A stretch of 33,363 nucleotides of DNA from a virus. The notes below the pieces were generated by a model. That model saw only the letters and a list, made by a program, of their open reading frames with translations. It searched no databases and had not been told where the DNA came from. The DNA lies in IMG/VR virus record IMGVR_UViG_3300018481_000052, positions 1 to 33,363 of that record, one strand, 5' to 3'. Position 1 is the first letter of the stretch. Every line of letters begins with the position of its first letter. This document shows, one piece after another, positions 22,888 to 31,889 of the stretch. Made by a program: the position numbers and the translations under genes.

Positions 22888-23261
22888 CTGGTCAAGACAC
22901 AGAAGAGTTCGACCCCCTGGCTCCGGACCGGCCTGAGCGGCGCAAGAGCGATCGCCTTCTCAAAAAGGTAGTTCGACTGGTCATATTCATCGGTCTCATG
23001 CTCATGCTGTTCGTGGGCTACGTACTCCTGCAGTCCTACGAGGGTCGTGTGGCCCTGGTGAATTCACAAAGAGCAGGCTGCGAACGAGGCAAGGAAGACC
23101 GTAAGGTCAACGCCCAAGGTTGGCGCATCGCTGAAGAAGCACGTCGTGCTGAGGGTCAAGAAGTAGTGGCTCTGGCGTACGACAAGATCGCCACCAGCCT
23201 GGAAGAGCGTGCAGCAATCAACTGCACGGAAGCATTTCCGAAAGCGAGCTTCATCCCGTGA
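22884..23261 (+). CDS. Single-pass membrane protein, partner of the preceding gene
   Basis: A 125-residue protein starting at GTG 22884 in the upstream stop (GTGA). An acidic then basic N-terminus (PLAPDRPERRKSDRLLKK) leads into a membrane segment (residues about 29-49, VVRLVIFIGLMLMLFVGYVLL). A soluble helical domain with Cys66 and Cys114 follows. The spacing of membrane segment and cysteines parallels the 155-residue neighbour, so the two may be diverged copies or a complex. Position just before the holin suggests a lysis-related role (inference). Confidence 0.6.
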   Translation: MTGQDTEEFDPLAPDRPERRKSDRLLKKVVRLVIFIGLMLMLFVGYVLLQSYEGRVALVNSQRAGCERGKEDRKVNAQGWRIAEEARRAEGQEVVALAYDKIATSLEERAAINCTEAFPKASFIP

Positions 23262-23596
23262 TCATCACGAACAAGCTGTGGTACGACCGGCTGAAGTTCT
23301 TGGCTCAGGTCGGCTTCCCGGCTGTGGGTACGCTGTACTTCGCCCTGGCCGGGCTGTGGGGACTGCCTGCAGCTGAGCAAGTCGTCGGCACCATCGTGGC
23401 AGTCGACGCATTTCTGGGGGTGATCCTCCAGATCTCGACGGCGCAGTACAACGCCCAGAACCTGGGCGGCAGTATCGACGTGGAGAAGGTCGGAGATCGT
23501 CTAGTCTACACGCTCAACCTGAACGACGATCCCGAACACCTGCAGGACAAGGAGAACGTGTCCTTCAGGGTGAACAAACCAGATCTAGGGGGGTGA
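23258..23596 (+). CDS. Holin, r1t type
   Basis: A 112-residue protein with the r1t-holin pattern: NKLWYDRLKFLAQVGFPAVG, then TLYFALAGLWGLPAAEQVVGTIVAVDAFLGVILQIS, giving two membrane segments joined by a LWGLPAAEQV loop. The polar tail (residues 70-112) is longer than in minimal holins. It would make inner-membrane holes that release the endolysin at the end of infection. GTG 23258 lies within the previous stop (GTGA), closing a translationally coupled run. Confidence 0.8.
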   Translation: MIITNKLWYDRLKFLAQVGFPAVGTLYFALAGLWGLPAAEQVVGTIVAVDAFLGVILQISTAQYNAQNLGGSIDVEKVGDRLVYTLNLNDDPEHLQDKENVSFRVNKPDLGG

Positions 23597-23696: not shown

Positions 23697-23699
23697 GGG

Positions 23700-23730
23700 G
23701 GTCGCGAAGGAAACTTCGCGTCTAATGAGA
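23700..23730 (+). promoter_or_regulatory. Cassette promoter-like repeat, copy 1
   Basis: GGTCGCG, 16 bases, TAATGAGA. It has the invariant AC at spacer positions 7-8 and C at position 16. Here the left block lies in a perfect inverted repeat: 23703-23709 pairs with 23714-23720 around a GAAA loop. That is enclosed by GGGGGT 23697-23702 with ACCCCC 23733-23738. The gene at 23750 starts 19 bases downstream of the element, after AAAGGAG. Confidence 0.6.
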
Positions 23731-23749
23731 CAACCCCCAAAGGAGATTA

Positions 23750-24034
23750 ATGTTCAATTTCAGAGCCAAACCAGACAATCATCTCGATCGTGAGATCCGC
23801 CGAACCACGCTCAAGATGAACGGCTATGAGCCAACCACCAAGGAATACGGTGAGTTGCTAGACCGGCTTCAGAAGCTACACAAACTGCGCGCAGAAGACA
23901 AGCCCGCATGCGTGAGCCCTGATACCGCCCTGACAACCGCCGCCTACCTGGTAGGTATGGTCATAATCGTCCATCACGAGCACGTCGGTGTGATCACCAC
24001 GAAAGCCATGAGCCATCTGGTGAAGCCAAAGTAA
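23750..24034 (+). CDS. Cassette gene 1, small phage protein with C-terminal membrane segment
   Basis: A 94-residue protein: a basic N-terminus (FNFRAKPDNHLDREIRRTTLKMNGYEPTTKEYGELLDRLQKLHKL), KPACVSPDT, then a hydrophobic segment (TTAAYLVGMVIIV) and HHEHVGVITTKAMSHLVKPK. I recognise this as a recurrent small actinophage protein of unknown function; the SPDT followed by a hydrophobic segment and GVIT(T/S)KA are its typical parts. ATG 23750 follows AAAGGAGATTA. It is the first of seven closely spaced units with their own promoter-like element. Confidence 0.75.
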   Translation: MFNFRAKPDNHLDREIRRTTLKMNGYEPTTKEYGELLDRLQKLHKLRAEDKPACVSPDTALTTAAYLVGMVIIVHHEHVGVITTKAMSHLVKPK

Positions 24035-24063
24035 CAAGAACTTCACAGGAAAGTCCAAGCGAG

Positions 24064-24098
24064 AGCCCCCTAACGGGGGCTTTAGCTTTGGTCTATTT
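24064..24098 (+). terminator. Intrinsic terminator after cassette gene 1
   Basis: AGCCCCC 24064-24070 pairs with GGGGGCT 24075-24081 around a TAAC loop. A T-rich tail ends in TTTTTT at 24096-24101, which runs directly into the next promoter-like repeat. Confidence 0.75.
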
Positions 24099-24129
24099 TT
24101 TCGCGGCAAAAACTTGCCTCCTAATGAGA
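24099..24129 (+). promoter_or_regulatory. Cassette promoter-like repeat, copy 2
   Basis: TTTCGCG, 16 bases (GCAAAAACTTGCCTCC), TAATGAGA. It lies right behind an intrinsic terminator and 26 bases before ATG 24156, with AAGGAG in between. The only copy with CCTAAT rather than TCTAAT at the presumed -10. Confidence 0.6.
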
Positions 24130-24155
24130 GACCACAAAATTCAAGGAGAGCAGCA

Positions 24156-24401
24156 ATGCCCATCACACAGAAGAACGTCCACCACGCCATCGCCGCCGCC
24201 ATCGTCGCCGACCTCGTTGTGTACGCGAATACCCGGAGACTTGTCCGCAAGACCCGCAAGGAGAACAACACCCTGCGAGCCATCGTCAAGTACCAGGATC
24301 GCCACATCAACTACCTCTGCGACGTCCTCGACCGCAACGACGTGAAGGTGACTGCCTTCGACAAGATCGCCATGCACGACCTCAAGAACGAACCCATCTG
24401 A
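24156..24401 (+). CDS. Cassette gene 2, 81-residue protein with N-terminal hydrophobic segment
   Basis: ATG 24156 follows AAGGAGAGCAGC. Residues 8-24 (HHAIAAAIVADLVVYA) could insert in a membrane; a basic helix follows (RRLVRKTRKENNTLRAIV) and the C-terminus reads YLCDVLDRNDVKVTAFDKIAMHDL. The final NDV-x-x-(T/E)xFDKIA pattern occurs in small proteins of many actinophages; function unknown. Codons are almost all C- or G-ended, unlike the lysis genes just upstream, which suggests high expression. Confidence 0.75.
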   Translation: MPITQKNVHHAIAAAIVADLVVYANTRRLVRKTRKENNTLRAIVKYQDRHINYLCDVLDRNDVKVTAFDKIAMHDLKNEPI

Positions 24402-24408
24402 TCCCTCG

Positions 24409-24434
24409 CCTTAGCCCCTAACATGGGGCTAAGG
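24409..24434 (+). terminator. 10-bp hairpin after cassette gene 2
   Basis: CCTTAGCCCC 24409-24418 pairs perfectly with GGGGCTAAGG 24425-24434 around TAACAT. The following TTT belongs to the next promoter-like repeat, so terminator tail and promoter left block share bases. Confidence 0.65.
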
Positions 24435-24465
24435 TTTCGCGAGAAAAACACTCCTTCTAATGAGA
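24435..24465 (+). promoter_or_regulatory. Cassette promoter-like repeat, copy 3
   Basis: TTTCGCG, 16 bases (AGAAAAACACTCCTTC), TAATGAGA. Located 26 bases before ATG 24492 with AAGGAG between. Downstream bases GACCGTTAAT are shared with copy 9. Confidence 0.6.
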
Positions 24466-24491
24466 CCGTTAATCCATTCAAGGAGACCGCA

Positions 24492-24695
24492 ATGAAGAAG
24501 CTCGCCGCCAAGGCCACTTCCGCCAAGAACCACGTCATCAAGCACCGCGCCAAGTACGCTGCTGCGACCACCGCCTCGGTGTTCGTCGCCATCAGCATCC
24601 GCAACGCCCGCTGCCTGAACGAGTTCTTCGCCGAGAAGGGCATCGACCCGACCGAGTACTACTGCCCCGAACTCTTCGCCGAGATCAACGCCTAA
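24492..24695 (+). CDS. Cassette gene 3, 67-residue membrane-type protein
   Basis: Starts MKKLAAKATSAKNHVIKHRAKY, a basic amphipathic segment, then a hydrophobic run (AAATTASVFVAISI), then RNARCLNEFFAEKGIDPTEYYCPELFAEINA. The NxFxxEKGIDPTE(Y/F) end recurs in small actinophage proteins. It has two cysteines, about 18 residues apart. ATG 24492 follows AAGGAGACCGCA. Codons are highly C/G-ended. Function unknown. Confidence 0.75.
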   Translation: MKKLAAKATSAKNHVIKHRAKYAAATTASVFVAISIRNARCLNEFFAEKGIDPTEYYCPELFAEINA

Positions 24696-24700
24696 GCCTC

Positions 24701-24719
24701 AGACCCCGCCATGGGGTCT
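24701..24719 (+). terminator. Hairpin after cassette gene 3
   Basis: AGACCCC 24701-24707 pairs with GGGGTCT 24713-24719 around GCCAT; outer CCT/AGG bases extend it with one mismatch. The next promoter-like repeat begins four bases on and supplies the short T tail. Confidence 0.6.
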
Positions 24720-24722
24720 AGG

Positions 24723-24753
24723 TTTCGCGCATTTTACATCTCCTCTAATGAGA
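24723..24753 (+). promoter_or_regulatory. Cassette promoter-like repeat, copy 4
   Basis: TTTCGCG, 16 bases (CATTTTACATCTCCTC), TAATGAGA. The spacer has T instead of A in its centre but keeps the invariant AC. ATG 24777 lies 23 bases downstream after TAAGGAG. Confidence 0.6.
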
Positions 24754-24776
24754 CCAATCTAATAAGGAGACTTAAA

Positions 24777-24947
24777 ATGGATTTCGACTTCAGCCGCCGT
24801 TGCGACCGCGACATCGAGAGCCTGATCAAGGATCTCACGCGTCAAGCATCCGCCTTCATGGTGGATCGTGACGAGCGTGAGGAACTGACCAAGCAGATCG
24901 CCCGCCTTCGCGCCAGCCTGAACCCGACCATCAAGATCGACCGTTAG
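24777..24947 (+). CDS. Cassette gene 4, 56-residue charged helical protein
   Basis: A soluble, charged protein, MDFDFSRRCDRDIESL followed by IKDLTRQASAF and DEREELTKQIARLRASL, probably two helices forming a coiled coil. There is no membrane segment, unlike most cassette products. ATG 24777 follows AAGGAGACTTAAA. I do not recognise a family. It is one of the modular small genes, and its frame is supported by C/G third positions and the exact cassette layout. Confidence 0.7.
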   Translation: MDFDFSRRCDRDIESLIKDLTRQASAFMVDRDEREELTKQIARLRASLNPTIKIDR

Positions 24948-24958
24948 CACCTCAGCCA

Positions 24959-24977
24959 AGACCCCGCCATGGGGTCT
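24959..24977 (+). terminator. Hairpin after cassette gene 4
   Basis: AGACCCC 24959-24965 pairs with GGGGTCT 24971-24977 around GCCAT. The 27 bases AAGACCCC...GGTTTCGCG are nearly identical to the hairpin-promoter junction after gene 3, so this junction has been copied recently. Confidence 0.6.
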
Positions 24978-24980
24978 AGG

Positions 24981-25011
24981 TTTCGCGCAGGATACTTGGG
25001 CTCTAATGAGA
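24981..25011 (+). promoter_or_regulatory. Cassette promoter-like repeat, copy 5
   Basis: TTTCGCG, 16 bases (CAGGATACTTGGGCTC), TAATGAGA. ATG 25033 is 21 bases downstream after AAGGAGCCCAGA. Confidence 0.6.
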
Positions 25012-25032
25012 ACCACTATCAAGGAGCCCAGA

Positions 25033-25236
25033 ATGACCCAGTCGAACCATATCCTCGCCCTCGTCCAGACCCTCCTCGATGACATCGAGCAGACCGAAGC
25101 CCTCATCAACGAGGCCCGCGTTGCCTTTCCCAGCAACGTAGGCTTCCAGATGAAGCTCGAGATGCTCGAGCATCGCATGGAGGGAAACCGAGATGCCGTT
25201 GACAAGATCGCCAAGTCCGTCCTCAGCACCACCTAG
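25033..25236 (+). CDS. Cassette gene 5, 67-residue helical protein
   Basis: Mostly acidic helices: SNHILALVQTLLDDIEQTEAL, INEARVAFPSNVGFQMKLEM and LEHRMEGNRDAVDKIAKSVL. A helical hairpin or dimer is likely; no membrane segment or catalytic motif is visible. ATG 25033 has AAGGAGCCCAGA upstream. The open frame could begin at the ATG inside TAATGAGA (25006), but that lacks a ribosome site. Function unknown. Confidence 0.7.
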   Translation: MTQSNHILALVQTLLDDIEQTEALINEARVAFPSNVGFQMKLEMLEHRMEGNRDAVDKIAKSVLSTT

Positions 25237-25243
25237 TACCTCG

Positions 25244-25268
25244 CCTAGACCCCAACATGGGGTTTAGG
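25244..25268 (+). terminator. 10-bp hairpin after cassette gene 5
   Basis: CCTAGACCCC 25244-25253 pairs with GGGGTTTAGG 25259-25268 (one G-T pair) around AACAT. Again the promoter-like repeat starts at the next base. Confidence 0.65.
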
Positions 25269-25299
25269 TTTCGCAGCAAAAACTTCTCCTCTAATGAGA
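25269..25299 (+). promoter_or_regulatory. Cassette promoter-like repeat, copy 6
   Basis: TTTCGCA, 16 bases (GCAAAAACTTCTCCTC), TAATGAGA. The only copy whose left block ends in A instead of G. ATG 25322 follows 22 bases later after CAAGGAGTAATCC. Confidence 0.6.
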
Positions 25300-25321
25300 A
25301 ACCACTACAAGGAGTAATCCC

Positions 25322-25498
25322 ATGAACGAATTCCTCGAAAGCCTGAAGCGTCAGGCCATCGAAAACCCGATCGTCGCCCTCGGCGTCGGCGCCGCCCTCA
25401 TCACCGCGATGAGCAAGCTCGTCGACTCCACCAGCGACAGTCGCAACTCGAAGGCCTGGGCCAAGGAGGTCGAGCGTCGCAACCGGAAGTCCAAGTAG
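25322..25498 (+). CDS. Cassette gene 6, 58-residue membrane-type protein
   Basis: A short gene, MNEFLESLKRQAIEN then a hydrophobic stretch (PIVALGVGAALITAMSKLV), then DSTSDSRNSKAWAKEVERRNRKSK. The N-terminal amphipathic helix, one Gly/Ala-rich membrane segment and the basic SKAWAKEV-R-R tail resemble a small membrane protein type found in many actinophages. ATG 25322 follows AAGGAGTAATCC. Function unknown. Confidence 0.75.
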   Translation: MNEFLESLKRQAIENPIVALGVGAALITAMSKLVDSTSDSRNSKAWAKEVERRNRKSK

Positions 25499-25507
25499 TC
25501 GCCTCAG

Positions 25508-25537
25508 CTAGAGCCCCCGCCCGGGCTCTAGTTTTTT
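25508..25537 (+). terminator. Strong intrinsic terminator after cassette gene 6
   Basis: CTAGAGCCC 25508-25516 pairs perfectly with GGGCTCTAG 25523-25531, followed at once by TTTTTT 25532-25537. This is the most canonical terminator in the array. Confidence 0.85.
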
Positions 25538-25540
25538 CTC

Positions 25541-25571
25541 TTTCGCGTGAAAAACACAGGGTCTAATGAGA
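25541..25571 (+). promoter_or_regulatory. Cassette promoter-like repeat, copy 7
   Basis: TTTCGCG, 16 bases (TGAAAAACACAGGGTC), TAATGAGA. The stretch CGCGTGAAAAACACAG is identical in copy 9, 4.2 kb away. ATG 25602 is 30 bases downstream, after CGAAAGAATCGCA. Confidence 0.6.
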
Positions 25572-25601
25572 CCCCGTATAACCTTACACGAAAGAATCGC
25601 A

Positions 25602-25736
25602 ATGACCATCAAGAACCCCGTCGCCGCCATCCTCGCCCGTCGCGCCAACAAGCGCTACGACGCCATGATCGCCGCCTCGCAGGCCAAGCTGGCCCTCACG
25701 ACCCACGTCCCCGGTTACACCAAGATCTACGCCTAA
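25602..25736 (+). CDS. Cassette gene 7, 44-residue basic protein
   Basis: A very short gene, MTIKNPVAAILARRANKR followed by YDAMIAASQAKLALTTHVPGYTKIYA. It is basic and probably a single helix with an aromatic tail. Support comes from the repeat-promoter upstream, C/G-ended codons and a hairpin (25743-25759) directly after the stop. The ribosome site (GAAAGAA) is weaker than in the other cassettes. No known family. Confidence 0.6.
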   Translation: MTIKNPVAAILARRANKRYDAMIAASQAKLALTTHVPGYTKIYA

Positions 25737-25742
25737 AGCTAA

Positions 25743-25759
25743 AGCCCCTACACGGGGCT
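25743..25759 (+). terminator. Hairpin after cassette gene 7
   Basis: AGCCCC 25743-25748 pairs with GGGGCT 25754-25759 around TACAC; flanking AAGC and GCTTT can extend it. No promoter-like repeat follows this one, so the next gene may be read through. Confidence 0.55.
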
Positions 25760-25787
25760 AAGGCTTTCAAACTCGAAAGGTATATTC

Positions 25788-27066: not shown

Positions 27067-27096
27067 TTCGCGTAGAAAACTTCGCCTCTAATGAGA
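27066..27096 (+). promoter_or_regulatory. Cassette promoter-like repeat, copy 8
   Basis: ATTCGCG, 16 bases (TAGAAAACTTCGCCTC), TAATGAGA. It begins in the endolysin stop codon. What follows is not a ribosome site and ORF but a structured, T-run-ended segment (27094-27180). Confidence 0.6.
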
Positions 27097-27180
27097 GAAG
27101 ACCCCAGTTGCCGCTTCCATATGAAGCAGCTCTCAGCCCCGCTTCCATATGAAGCAGCGCTGAGTGGGTCTTCTCTTTTT
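27094..27180 (+). ncRNA. Probable small structured RNA or leader attenuator
   Basis: AGAGAAGACCC at 27094-27104 pairs perfectly (11 bp) with GGGTCTTCTCT at 27166-27176, which runs into a T5 tract at 27176-27180. Inside are two identical hairpins, GCTTC-CATAT-GAAGC at 27113-27127 and 27141-27155. The second is enclosed by CTCAGC 27132-27137 with GCTGAG 27159-27164. The whole forms a three-way junction closed by a terminator-like stem. A promoter-like repeat ends exactly where the RNA would begin. It may act as a trans-acting RNA, a protein-binding RNA, or a conditional terminator for the gene at 27208. Transcription is unproven. Confidence 0.6.
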
Positions 27181-27207
27181 CTGCCACATAAACTAAGGAG
27201 AATCAAG

Positions 27208-27621
27208 ATGACGTGGAAGGAAAGATGGGCGCAGTTGAAGCAGAACGCGAAGGTCAACGCTGTCGTGAATCACGTCGAGGCGAACAAGAAGACGTACCTC
27301 GTCGGCATGGGCGGAGCCGCCGTTGGTGGTGGTATGGCTCTGATGTTCAAGAGCCGTCCCAACATCACTCAGATCAACAACACGGTCGCTCCGAGCATCG
27401 CTCCGGTGTTCAACAACGACAACTCGGCGATGGTGAACTTCGGTGGCACCATGAGCAAGATCGTCAAGCGGACTTCTGATGGGAAGATCTGGGAGACCGT
27501 TACCGAAGCTGCCACTGAGGAAGGTGTCACCCTTCCCATGATGTCCAAGCATCTCAACGGCCGTAGCCCACATATCTATGGGCAGACCTACGAAATCATC
27601 GGCCTCAGGACCGCAGGCTGA
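27208..27621 (+). CDS. Membrane-tethered protein with NUMOD-like C-terminus
   Basis: A 137-residue protein. An N-terminal charged helix (MTWKERWAQLKQNAKVNAVVNHVEANKK) leads to a Gly-rich membrane segment (TYLVGMGGAAVGGGMALMF). A polar region follows, then KIVKRTSDGKIWETVTEAATEEGVTLPMMSKHLNGRSPHIYGQTYEIIGL. That last part has the Ala-Ala...Gly-Val...Ser-x-x-Leu-x-Gly...Gly-x-x-(Y/F)-E pattern of NUMOD1-like helix-turn-helix modules, usually seen in homing nucleases. Here no nuclease is attached. ATG 27208 follows TAAGGAGAATCAAG. The structured RNA just upstream may control it. Function unknown. Confidence 0.65.
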   Translation: MTWKERWAQLKQNAKVNAVVNHVEANKKTYLVGMGGAAVGGGMALMFKSRPNITQINNTVAPSIAPVFNNDNSAMVNFGGTMSKIVKRTSDGKIWETVTEAATEEGVTLPMMSKHLNGRSPHIYGQTYEIIGLRTAG

Positions 27622-28034: not shown

Positions 28035-28808
28035 ATGAGACTCCCCCAGCTGCAAAAGATGGCAGAGAAGTTCTTCAGTGACAACGCCTCGAGCATCCTC
28101 ACGGGAGTGGGCATGGTCGGCGTGGTCGGTACCGCAGTCCTGACGCATCGGGCCGCTGTCAAGGCCAGCTACGTCATCAACGAAGAGCGGGAGCGTCGGA
28201 CCACCGAGACGATCCCGGACGCAATCGAGGGCACCGAGATGGTGGGCATGGTGTGGAAGTTCTACGTGCCGCCGGTGGCCTTGGGAGCTGCCACGATCGC
28301 GTCCATCTACGGGGCGAATCGGATGTCGGCCCAGAAGGCGGCCGCTCTGGCCGCTGCCTACGGCATCTCCGAGTCCCGCTTCGCGGAGTACAAGGAGAAG
28401 ACCCTGGAGAAGCTCGGGGTCAAGAAGGAGACCGATCTGCGAGCCGAGATCGCTCAGGACCGGGTGAGCAAGGACGAGTCCAGCCAGGTCATCATCCTCA
28501 CGGATGGCGACGTGCTGTGTTACGACCTGCTCACGGGCCGGTACTTCCGCTCGTCGGTGGAGAAGATCCGCAAGGCGGAGAACAAGCTCAACCAGGAGTT
28601 GATGTACCACGAGTACGCCTCCCTGAGCTCCTTCTTCGACGACGTCGGCCTGGAGGCCACCCAGTACACCGACGAGGTGGGCTGGAACCAGGCGACCGAT
28701 GGTGTGGTCGAGGTGAAGTTCTCCACCACGACGTCCACGGACGATCGGCCCTGCATCGCGATCGAGTTCGCCACGCCGCCTCACCCCTCGTACCACAACC
28801 AGTACTGA
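28035..28808 (+). CDS. DUF6353-like membrane protein, copy A
   Basis: A 257-residue protein with two N-terminal hydrophobic segments, SSILTGVGMVGVVGTAVLTHRA (about 20-41) and VPPVALGAATIASIYGANRM (about 78-98). They are followed by a long charged helix (SRFAEYKEKTLEKLGVKKETDL) and a soluble C-terminal domain (VIILTDGDVLCYDLLTGRYFRSSVEKIRKAENKLN, then SLSSFFDDVGLEATQYTDEVGWN). This layout fits the phage family DUF6353, of unknown function. The gene at 30966 is a paralogue. ATG 28035 follows GAAAGGTAGGG. Confidence 0.7.
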   Translation: MRLPQLQKMAEKFFSDNASSILTGVGMVGVVGTAVLTHRAAVKASYVINEERERRTTETIPDAIEGTEMVGMVWKFYVPPVALGAATIASIYGANRMSAQKAAALAAAYGISESRFAEYKEKTLEKLGVKKETDLRAEIAQDRVSKDESSQVIILTDGDVLCYDLLTGRYFRSSVEKIRKAENKLNQELMYHEYASLSSFFDDVGLEATQYTDEVGWNQATDGVVEVKFSTTTSTDDRPCIAIEFATPPHPSYHNQY

Positions 28809-29778: not shown

Positions 29779-29809
29779 TCTCGCGTGAAAAACACAGCGT
29801 CTAATGAGA
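29779..29809 (+). promoter_or_regulatory. Cassette promoter-like repeat, copy 9
   Basis: TCTCGCG, 16 bases (TGAAAAACACAGCGTC), TAATGAGA. The left part matches copy 7 and the following GACCGTTAAT matches copy 3, so the copy looks mosaic. ATG 29839 lies 29 bases downstream after CAAGGAGATTCAA. Confidence 0.6.
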
Positions 29810-29838: not shown

Positions 29839-30093
29839 ATGCCCCAGCAGAACGCCATCATCAAGACCGCCGTCCACATGATCGTTGCCGGGTACGCACA
29901 GAAGACCGCCAAGACCGTCATCGTCGAGAACACCAACACCAACCCCGACAGCATCCTGCTGTCCGCTGGTACGTTCCTCGCCGGAGAGACTGTCGCCAGC
30001 ATGTCCGACCCGTACACCAGCAAGATCGTCGACGCCAGCGTCTCGAAGATCAAGTCCCTGTTCAGCAAGAAGAACAACCCCGAGTCCGAGTAA
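29839..30093 (+). CDS. Cassette gene 9, 84-residue membrane-type protein
   Basis: MPQQNAIIKTAVHMIVAGYAQKTAKTVIVENTNTNPDSIL followed by a weakly hydrophobic LSAGTFLAGETVASM segment and a C-terminal SKIKSLFSKKNNPESE. Composition and C/G-ended codons match the 24-25.7 kb cassettes, and the same order (promoter repeat, AAGGAG, gene, terminator) is kept. No known family; Ala/Gly-rich helices may associate with the membrane. Confidence 0.7.
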   Translation: MPQQNAIIKTAVHMIVAGYAQKTAKTVIVENTNTNPDSILLSAGTFLAGETVASMSDPYTSKIVDASVSKIKSLFSKKNNPESE

Positions 30094-30965: not shown

Positions 30966-31889
30966 ATGAAGCTAGTCCCCAACGCGGTGAAGGGAGCACT
31001 CGGGCGTCATTCACTGAAGCTCGACAAGGCGTCCCCCAACCTGCTGTTCGGTCTGGGTGTCGGCGGGATGGTCCTGTCCACGGCCCTGGCCTGCCGGGCC
31101 ACGCTCAAGATGAGCGAGGTGATGGAGACGGCCAAGAACGACCTCACCATCGCCAAGTCGCTGGACTACAGCGAGTCCACCGAGGCCAACGCGCAGCAGC
31201 GCGACATCGCCATCATCCACGGACGGGCAGCGATCGCGTCGGTCAAGCTGTACGCACCGTCGGTGGCGCTCGGCGCAGCGTCCATCGCCTGCCTGACCAA
31301 GTCGCACAACCTCCTGCAGGGCCGCAACCTGGCTCTGACCGCGGCCTACGCTGCCGTGGACGAGGCCTTCACCGCCTACCGCGACCGTGTGGTCACCAAG
31401 TACGGCGAGGACGTGGACCGCGAGCTGCGCTACGACGTCCGGGACGTGGAGTACAAGCAGATCGGCACCGACAAGATCGTCAAGGGGCGGCGCGTCGGCC
31501 CAGGCGGGGAGTCGATGTACGCACGGTTCTTCGACCAGACGTCACCGTCCTGGTCCAAGGACCCGGAGTACAACAACACCTTCCTGATCTGCCAGCAAAA
31601 CTGGTTCAACGATCTCCTCAAGGTGAGGGGGCACGTGTTCCTCAACGAGGTCTACGACGGCCTCGGGATCCCCCGCACTCGAGCGGGGCAGGTCGTGGGC
31701 TGGATGATCTCCCGCGACGGGAGCAGCGACAACTACATCGACTTCGGCATCTTCGATGGGGAGTCGCAGGTCGCGCGGGACTTCATGAACGGGCGAGAGG
31801 GTGCCATCCTGCTCGACTTCAACGTCGACGGCACCATCTACGACAAGATCGACCCGGATTCGGAGGACATCAAGCCATGGCAGAGGTGA
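30966..31889 (+). CDS. DUF6353-like membrane protein, copy B
   Basis: A 307-residue paralogue of the gene at 28035. It has two hydrophobic segments (SPNLLFGLGVGGMVLSTALACRA and YAPSVALGAASIACLTKSHNLL), the same order of a long helix after the second segment (LTAAYAAVDEAFTAYRDRVVTKYGEDVDRELRY), then a soluble domain of about 180 residues. That domain includes SMYARFFDQTSPSWSKDPEYNNTFLICQQNWFNDLLKVRGHVFLNEVYDGLGIPRTRAGQVVGWM. ATG 30966 follows TAGGAGCACCAAG. Probably embedded in the host membrane with a cytoplasmic domain; role unknown. Confidence 0.72.
   Translation: MKLVPNAVKGALGRHSLKLDKASPNLLFGLGVGGMVLSTALACRATLKMSEVMETAKNDLTIAKSLDYSESTEANAQQRDIAIIHGRAAIASVKLYAPSVALGAASIACLTKSHNLLQGRNLALTAAYAAVDEAFTAYRDRVVTKYGEDVDRELRYDVRDVEYKQIGTDKIVKGRRVGPGGESMYARFFDQTSPSWSKDPEYNNTFLICQQNWFNDLLKVRGHVFLNEVYDGLGIPRTRAGQVVGWMISRDGSSDNYIDFGIFDGESQVARDFMNGREGAILLDFNVDGTIYDKIDPDSEDIKPWQR

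Follow-up and report, generated by a model that had tools for sequence, protein, structure and literature searches.

The closest described counterparts of the locus studied here are the promoter early stem-loops (PeSLs) of T4-type phages (Arbiol et al. 2010; Comeau et al. 2014; both as cited in PMC4503421). As summarized in PMC4503421, the T4 PeSLs are terminator–promoter composites located between small accessory genes; they are dense in plastic regions and are credited with gene shuffling among close relatives. In Cluster K mycobacteriophages, the repeat SAS (GGGATAGGAGCCC) lies at the start codon and ESAS is an inverted repeat of 17 bp (PMC3203893), and the halovirus HF2 has 29- and 58-bp intergenic repeats that, according to the abstract, were shown to carry promoters (PMC8707807). 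Here, we analyzed the window, i.e., the whole of a 33,363-base IMG/VR fragment of a soil phage (IMGVR_UViG_3300018481_000052), in which small genes stand in an array with a hairpin and a promoter-like repeat in front of each of them. The earlier note on this DNA had put the array forward as its best candidate for a previously undescribed system; with the T4 PeSLs, as summarized above, being a close precedent, that claim was not upheld.

The array starts directly 3' of the holin gene (23258–23596) and a 31-codon open reading frame (ORF). Its seven units (23,702–25,767) share the order hairpin, YCGC-N15-TNTAATGAGA, ribosome-binding site (RBS), and an ORF of 44–94 codons. The comparisons given below make it highly probable that these are monocistronic accessory units, each provided with its own phage-specific promoter and terminator, and that the repeat acts as a recombination patch. 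They also support the gain, loss, and re-ordering of whole units at the terminator–promoter element. The features of the array are listed below; the promoters are predicted from the sequence, and the hairpins were called by folding against shuffles (aa, amino acids).

23702..23730 (+): promoter 1 (TCGC-N15-TCTAAT-GAGA), overlapping its own small hairpin
23750..24034 (+): p1, 94 aa, phrog_5818 (family F0), which opens most arrays
24062..24083 (+): core of a terminator-like hairpin, followed by a T-rich tract
24101..24129 (+): promoter 2
24156..24401 (+): p2, 81 aa
24408..24435 (+): terminator-like hairpin with a short T-tract overlapping the start of promoter 3
24437..24465 (+): promoter 3
24492..24695 (+): p3, 67 aa, phrog_12653 (family F1)
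24696..24723 (+): terminator-like hairpin
24725..24753 (+): promoter 4
24777..24947 (+): p4, 56 aa (family F40)
24955..24981 (+): terminator-like hairpin
24983..25011 (+): promoter 5
25033..25236 (+): p5, 67 aa
25243..25269 (+): terminator-like hairpin
25271..25299 (+): promoter 6
25322..25498 (+): p6, 58 aa, phrog_18827/13500 (family F8), one hydrophobic segment by hydropathy
25506..25533 (+): terminator-like hairpin with a T-run
25543..25571 (+): promoter 7
25602..25736 (+): p7, 44 aa (F9-like; relatives in L039, L066, L047, L017, L021, and L102)
25735..25767 (+): terminator-like hairpin, end of the array

The ORFs of units 1–7 have 94, 81, 67, 56, 67, 58, and 44 codons, and the gap between TAATGAGA and the ATG is 19–30 nucleotides (nt); the fixed seven-unit layout claimed in the earlier note was thus found in all its features. 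Its repeat, TTTCGCG followed by 16 bases, was exact in front of TAATGAGA in five of the seven copies, while one or two bases are changed in the first (GGTCGCG) and the sixth (TTTCGCA). The refined form is YCGC-N15-TNTAAT-GAGA, and two further copies lie beyond the array, at 27068 and 29781. The strict motif had six matches in the array region and none in 2,000 dinucleotide shuffles. The seven hairpins each beat all 200 dinucleotide shuffles (z from -3.6 to -6.0). As judged by eye, they vary between units with their pairing preserved (AGCCCC/GGGGCT in one and GACCCC/GGGGTC in others). A significant hairpin for every unit was therefore confirmed, but not a separate terminator upstream of every unit, as the hairpin of unit 1 overlaps promoter 1. 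The noted hydrophobicity of several products was also seen for at least p1, p2, and p6 (best 19-residue Kyte–Doolittle mean of 1.3–1.8). PADLOC gave no matches.

The spacing within the element is rigid also outside the window. An exact-pattern scan of viral contigs yielded 107 stretches, many of them with several copies; the related stretches compared with the window are given L-numbers. In the related contigs, TCGC lies exactly 15 nt upstream in 263 of 290 non-redundant TNTAATGAGR sites, while every other distance accounts for at most 12 of these sites. The same 15-nt distance was found at 46 of 59 sites in loci fetched blind to the motif, by the holin protein; of the other queries, the p1 alignment was too diverse to be usable and the minor tail protein brought no relative. 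The spacer contains a conserved ACA. An RBS and an ORF (median 71.5 aa) follow 210 of 271 promoter sites, and the sequence upstream of the promoters folds better than the downstream controls (median -12.0 versus -8.0 kcal/mol).

The element was found in phages of Gordonia, Rhodococcus equi, Streptomyces, and Arthrobacter. Its TATAAT form with an extended GAGACCCC-GAAAGGA leader is shared by the Gordonia Deejayvirinae, the Rhodococcus phages Pepy6 and Poco6, and the Streptomyces phage Kardashian, while the Arthrobacter phage Qui has the element without this leader. The complete isolate genomes contain 7–13 copies each, on a single strand only, and no copy of the reversed control pattern. It should be noted that six copies were also found within 4.1 kb of L121 (QHXL01000552.1), a contig from an Acidobacteria metagenome-assembled genome bin; it is probably a phage contig misplaced in a bacterial bin.

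The exchange of units was followed in pairwise alignments, in which the insertion–deletion (indel) events were counted by eye and are not all phylogenetically independent. The phages Tanis and Odesza differ by one unit of 323 bp, with flanks 99.7% and 99.4% identical. This length is the spacing of two successive Tanis promoters, and both ends of the unit lie inside a terminator–promoter repeat of ~70 bp. Odesza retains the sequence flanking the first element on its 5' side together with the promoter spacer of the second, which places the exchange point within the identical terminator–promoter stretch. Five further unit-sized indels terminate at promoters. Petito has one unit (343 bp) more than Conley, Jodelie19 and OlgasClover have one (337 bp) more than their relatives, and in the clade of the window itself L080 has one (318 bp) more than L053, with both ends at a promoter. 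A protein unit present in Figliar and missing from Aflac has its ends a few bases 5' of two promoters, and an RNA unit (141 bp) present in Zeph and missing from Kenosha has its ends in the promoter. The size of the indels equals, or nearly equals, one promoter-to-promoter distance, and their ends are in the terminator–promoter repeat or within a few bases of it. The adjacent units F16–F8 of L102 appear as F8–F16 in L060, and the 376 first-ORF products across the arrays fall into 144 families. Presence or absence of whole units at unit borders and one swapped pair thus bear out the proposal that the cassettes are exchangeable.

The promoter units of the relatives frame not only small proteins but also transfer RNAs (tRNAs) or structured RNAs. 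The first bases (GAGA...) pair with the last bases before a T-run at about 66 of 404 promoter sites, a count that includes false positives, since ORF-containing stretches pass too. Genes called tRNA-like by eye rather than by ARAGORN lie exactly between the promoter GAGA and the pairing TCTC with its T-run (L179+3041, L184+3939, L187+3049, L074-4946, and L062-10255). A recurrent RNA family of 110–125 nt under the same promoter shares a GACAC-GAAT/TAAT-GTGT hairpin motif (L195+8414, L101+9506, L057-6126, L012-6355, L072-6629, L098+5471, and L184+3798). Another recurrent closed RNA (L030-7895, L102-4185, and L053+5342) shares a hairpin around AGTAATGTT/AGTAATTCC and CTAACCGCGTC, and its L030 copy adjoins a phrog_27818 gene. 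Rfam gave no gathering-score match in nine sources, the window included, and no match at E ≤0.5 in six sources; for the 110–125-nt family, there was none in those sources scanned.

From these comparisons, the following mechanism can be proposed. The accessory units of this actinobacteriophage stand between the holin (lysis) gene and a downstream block of genes of unknown function. Transcription of each unit would start at a phage-specific promoter, YCGC-N15-TATAAT-GAGA, and stop at a hairpin terminator, the short T-tract of which reaches into the promoter that follows. The terminator–promoter repeat would insulate every small gene. The repeat would also offer a patch of homology, and recombination between its copies would add, delete, or re-order units with expression left intact. 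We infer the start and stop of transcription at the element, as well as homologous recombination as the route, from sequence comparison. Dedicated exchange machinery is not supported, and homologous recombination between the repeats would suffice. As for integron cassettes, no integrase was found among the larger ORFs scanned in the window, which is a fragment, and attC sites were not searched for.

Several observations weigh against this reading. The YCGC box is unlike the -35 box of sigma-70 promoters and, at 15 nt, too close, and for this reason we only infer promoter function. Most hairpins of the window are followed by three T's only, which is weak by E. coli rules. Two events did not use the element: a gene indel of 247/254 bp (L179–L190), with an end overlap of 10–20 bp, in the promoter-free overlapping operon downstream of the array, and an insertion of 521–544 bp carrying a gene and an RNA. 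Gene order is partly kept (F0 leads, and F5 or F2 lies towards the end), indicating that exchange is not free.

The element would most likely be read by the RNA polymerase of the host together with a host sigma factor, possibly with the help of a phage activator. A phage sigma factor as the general reader was rejected, as Sigma70_r2 was present in only one of 16 genomes overall, and none of the nine isolate genomes examined had it. There was also no sign of a host regulon: when bacterial and archaeal genomes (257 Gb) were scanned with a relaxed motif, only 55 stretches matched, most of them with one match each in unrelated phyla. Because Sigma70_r2 is missing from the isolate genomes and the upstream box is not a normal -35 box, a phage activator acting with the host polymerase is a reasonable alternative to a plain host promoter. 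The element would then belong to an activator-dependent class of phage promoters, comparable to the T4 middle promoters with their MotA box, and YCGC would be the activator site instead of a -35 box. This proposal, which refines the monocistronic reading and does not compete with it, seems to us a real possibility, though somewhat short of an even chance. The rigid 15-nt spacing, the non-canonical box, the conserved spacer ACA, the absence of Sigma70_r2 from the isolate genomes, and the few relaxed-motif matches speak for it; meanwhile, no activator gene was found, and a host alternative sigma factor could serve as well.

It is rather unlikely that the repeat is an RNA-level element, such as a translation enhancer or a processing or stability signal, in one long late mRNA that continues from the lysis genes across the units. 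The array does lie 3' of late genes on the same strand, the copies in the Gordonia and Rhodococcus phages are conserved into the 5' untranslated region and the RBS, and the T-tracts of most hairpins are short. However, such an element would not be expected to consist of TATAAT with a rigidly spaced upstream box, nor to stand in identical form 5' of tRNAs and closed RNAs, which are not translated. In the closed RNAs, moreover, the closing stem has the GAGA that directly follows TATAAT as its 5' side, which fits a transcription start at about this point. An ordinary tandem gene family diverged in place without unit exchange is very improbable: its partly conserved order, with F0 first among the anchored arrays, is outweighed by the unrelatedness of neighboring products (376 proteins in 144 families), the unit-sized indels ending in the repeat, the contradicting Tanis/Odesza pair, and the swapped order of F8 and F16.

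Beyond the array, the window contains a further promoter unit in which an RNA is paired with a protein gene, and a ninth promoter copy.

27068..27096 (+): promoter copy eight, predicted from the sequence
27093..27176 (+): closed-stem RNA with the identical hairpin motif CCGCTTCCATATGAAGCAGC twice, then a T-run (fold -43 kcal/mol, z = -7.1)
27208..27621 (+): phrog_27818 protein, 137 aa, with a hydrophobic N-terminal segment and an I-HmuI-like (NUMOD) DNA-binding domain, from hydropathy and predicted structure
29781..29809 (+): promoter copy nine, predicted from the sequence, with an inverted repeat upstream
29848..30093 (+): 81-aa ORF, phrog_7539 (family F5), the final unit of many arrays

Two genes of phrog_2152, of unknown function, lie nearby (28035–28808 and 30966–31889).

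The phrog_27818 gene stands beside a closed, putatively promoter-driven RNA with two or three copies of a phage-specific hairpin in the window (27068–27621) and in L006 (15008–15530), L170 (5511–6010), L245 (701–1217), and L248 (745–1310). Doubled hairpins (score of at least 12) were found at 16 of 413 promoter sites, compared with 0.2 expected from shuffles. A phrog_27818-like ORF lies within 320 nt of 12 of these 16 sites versus 22 of all 413 (Fisher p = 2e-14, a value that is partly circular, as phrog_27818 was first noticed beside doubled-hairpin RNAs). An earlier score based on loop identity alone gave no excess over shuffles. Since the repeat-plus-hairpin score replaced it post hoc, the set of phages chosen by the protein alone weighs more. 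In this set, the promoter follows the gene directly in Pherobrine, Captrips, Perkunas, the second Artorias copy, Pepy6, and the distant Arthrobacter phage Qui, and the RNA at this place or the one after it carries two to three copies of a hairpin motif. The closed RNAs of Tanis, Odesza, Untouchable, and OhMyWard lack long exact repeats. Gene and RNA are found together in the 521–544-bp insertion mentioned above (Artorias, Petito, and Avazak), and in L195 (8950–9360) and L090 (2499–2891) the promoter and a double-hairpin RNA apparently lie inside the phrog_27818 reading frame.

The arms inside one RNA differ by paired changes in L030, L061, L075, and L037. Captrips has the same scaffold as Artorias and Perkunas with all three arms changed together. 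Such concerted variation with compensatory stem changes suggests a specific partner, which may be the phrog_27818 protein or a target in the host, for instance a defence factor. That the repeats are DNA operators of the I-HmuI-like protein is disfavoured, as the arms differ by paired stem changes and the outer stems differ yet pair. When the hairpin loops were inspected by eye as possible anticodon mimics, no consistent pattern was seen. In the predicted structure of the window protein, the C-terminal domain reached a pLDDT of 83–93 (blocks 81–130), while the remainder was poor (mean of 65). This domain comes closest to I-HmuI (probability 1.00, E 0.08), along with other DNA-binding domains; the membrane segment is predicted from hydropathy. 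We give an even chance to the proposal that a membrane-anchored phrog_27818 protein with its I-HmuI-like domain and a closed-stem RNA with two to three phage-specific hairpins form an undescribed two-component system, the cassettes being a general protein/RNA platform of actinobacteriophages.

Type III toxin–antitoxin systems (ToxIN-like) likewise combine the gene of a small protein with an adjacent RNA built from repeated structural units, and the variation is matched. Unlike in these systems, the phrog_27818 protein combines a membrane segment with a domain similar to I-HmuI, and the RNA is provided with a promoter of its own and can be found on one side of the gene or on the other. No Pfam or PADLOC match to a ToxN/AbiQ-type endoribonuclease was obtained for the protein–RNA module (27093–27621).

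The array thus points to the use of a strategy like that of the PeSLs in a further branch of tailed phages, with dozens of contigs and four host genera, a scale that permits direct tests of how accessory genes are swapped without disturbing their neighbors. The conserved promoter is also a simple tag by which small accessory proteins, as well as RNA genes that lack annotation, can be located in actinobacteriophage genomes, and it has already yielded structured RNAs without an Rfam match and a recurrent protein–RNA pair. We found no paper on the element in actinobacteriophages, although subscription papers were mostly outside the search and an earlier mention is possible.

Among the known repeats, SAS/ESAS is similar in that a short repeat stands 5' of many small phage genes, about half of them with a linked inverted repeat (PMC3203893). 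However, the repeat of the window is not GGGATAGGAGCCC and has no sequence in common with it, and no terminator–promoter unit is described in PMC3203893. The HF2 repeats differ in being archaeal, with genus-conserved positions and very long transcripts, and unit exchange is not mentioned in the abstract (PMC8707807). As far as the T4 PeSLs are summarized in PMC4503421, the array resembles them in three respects: at the sequence level, a hairpin terminator is directly followed by a promoter in one repeated element; the element sits among small accessory genes in a hyperplastic region (144 families among 376 unit proteins); and units are shuffled between close relatives at the element. It differs from them in the promoter, with YCGC at the constant distance of 15 nt where their strong early promoters for host sigma-70 have a -35 box at about 17, and in its carriers, which by their structural genes (in the window, a match of ~75% to phages of Streptomyces, Gordonia, and Arthrobacter) are actinobacterial phages of the siphovirus type and not T4-type myoviruses. 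It also lies 3' of the lysis genes, and its units carry tRNAs and structured RNAs as well. As promoter type and carrier phage differ, the array works like a PeSL but is not a member of the PeSLs. The strategy is already known from the T4-type phages, within the scope of that summary; the sequence, the phages, and the cargo genes are new here, and the RNA–protein pair may go beyond this precedent as an undescribed module.

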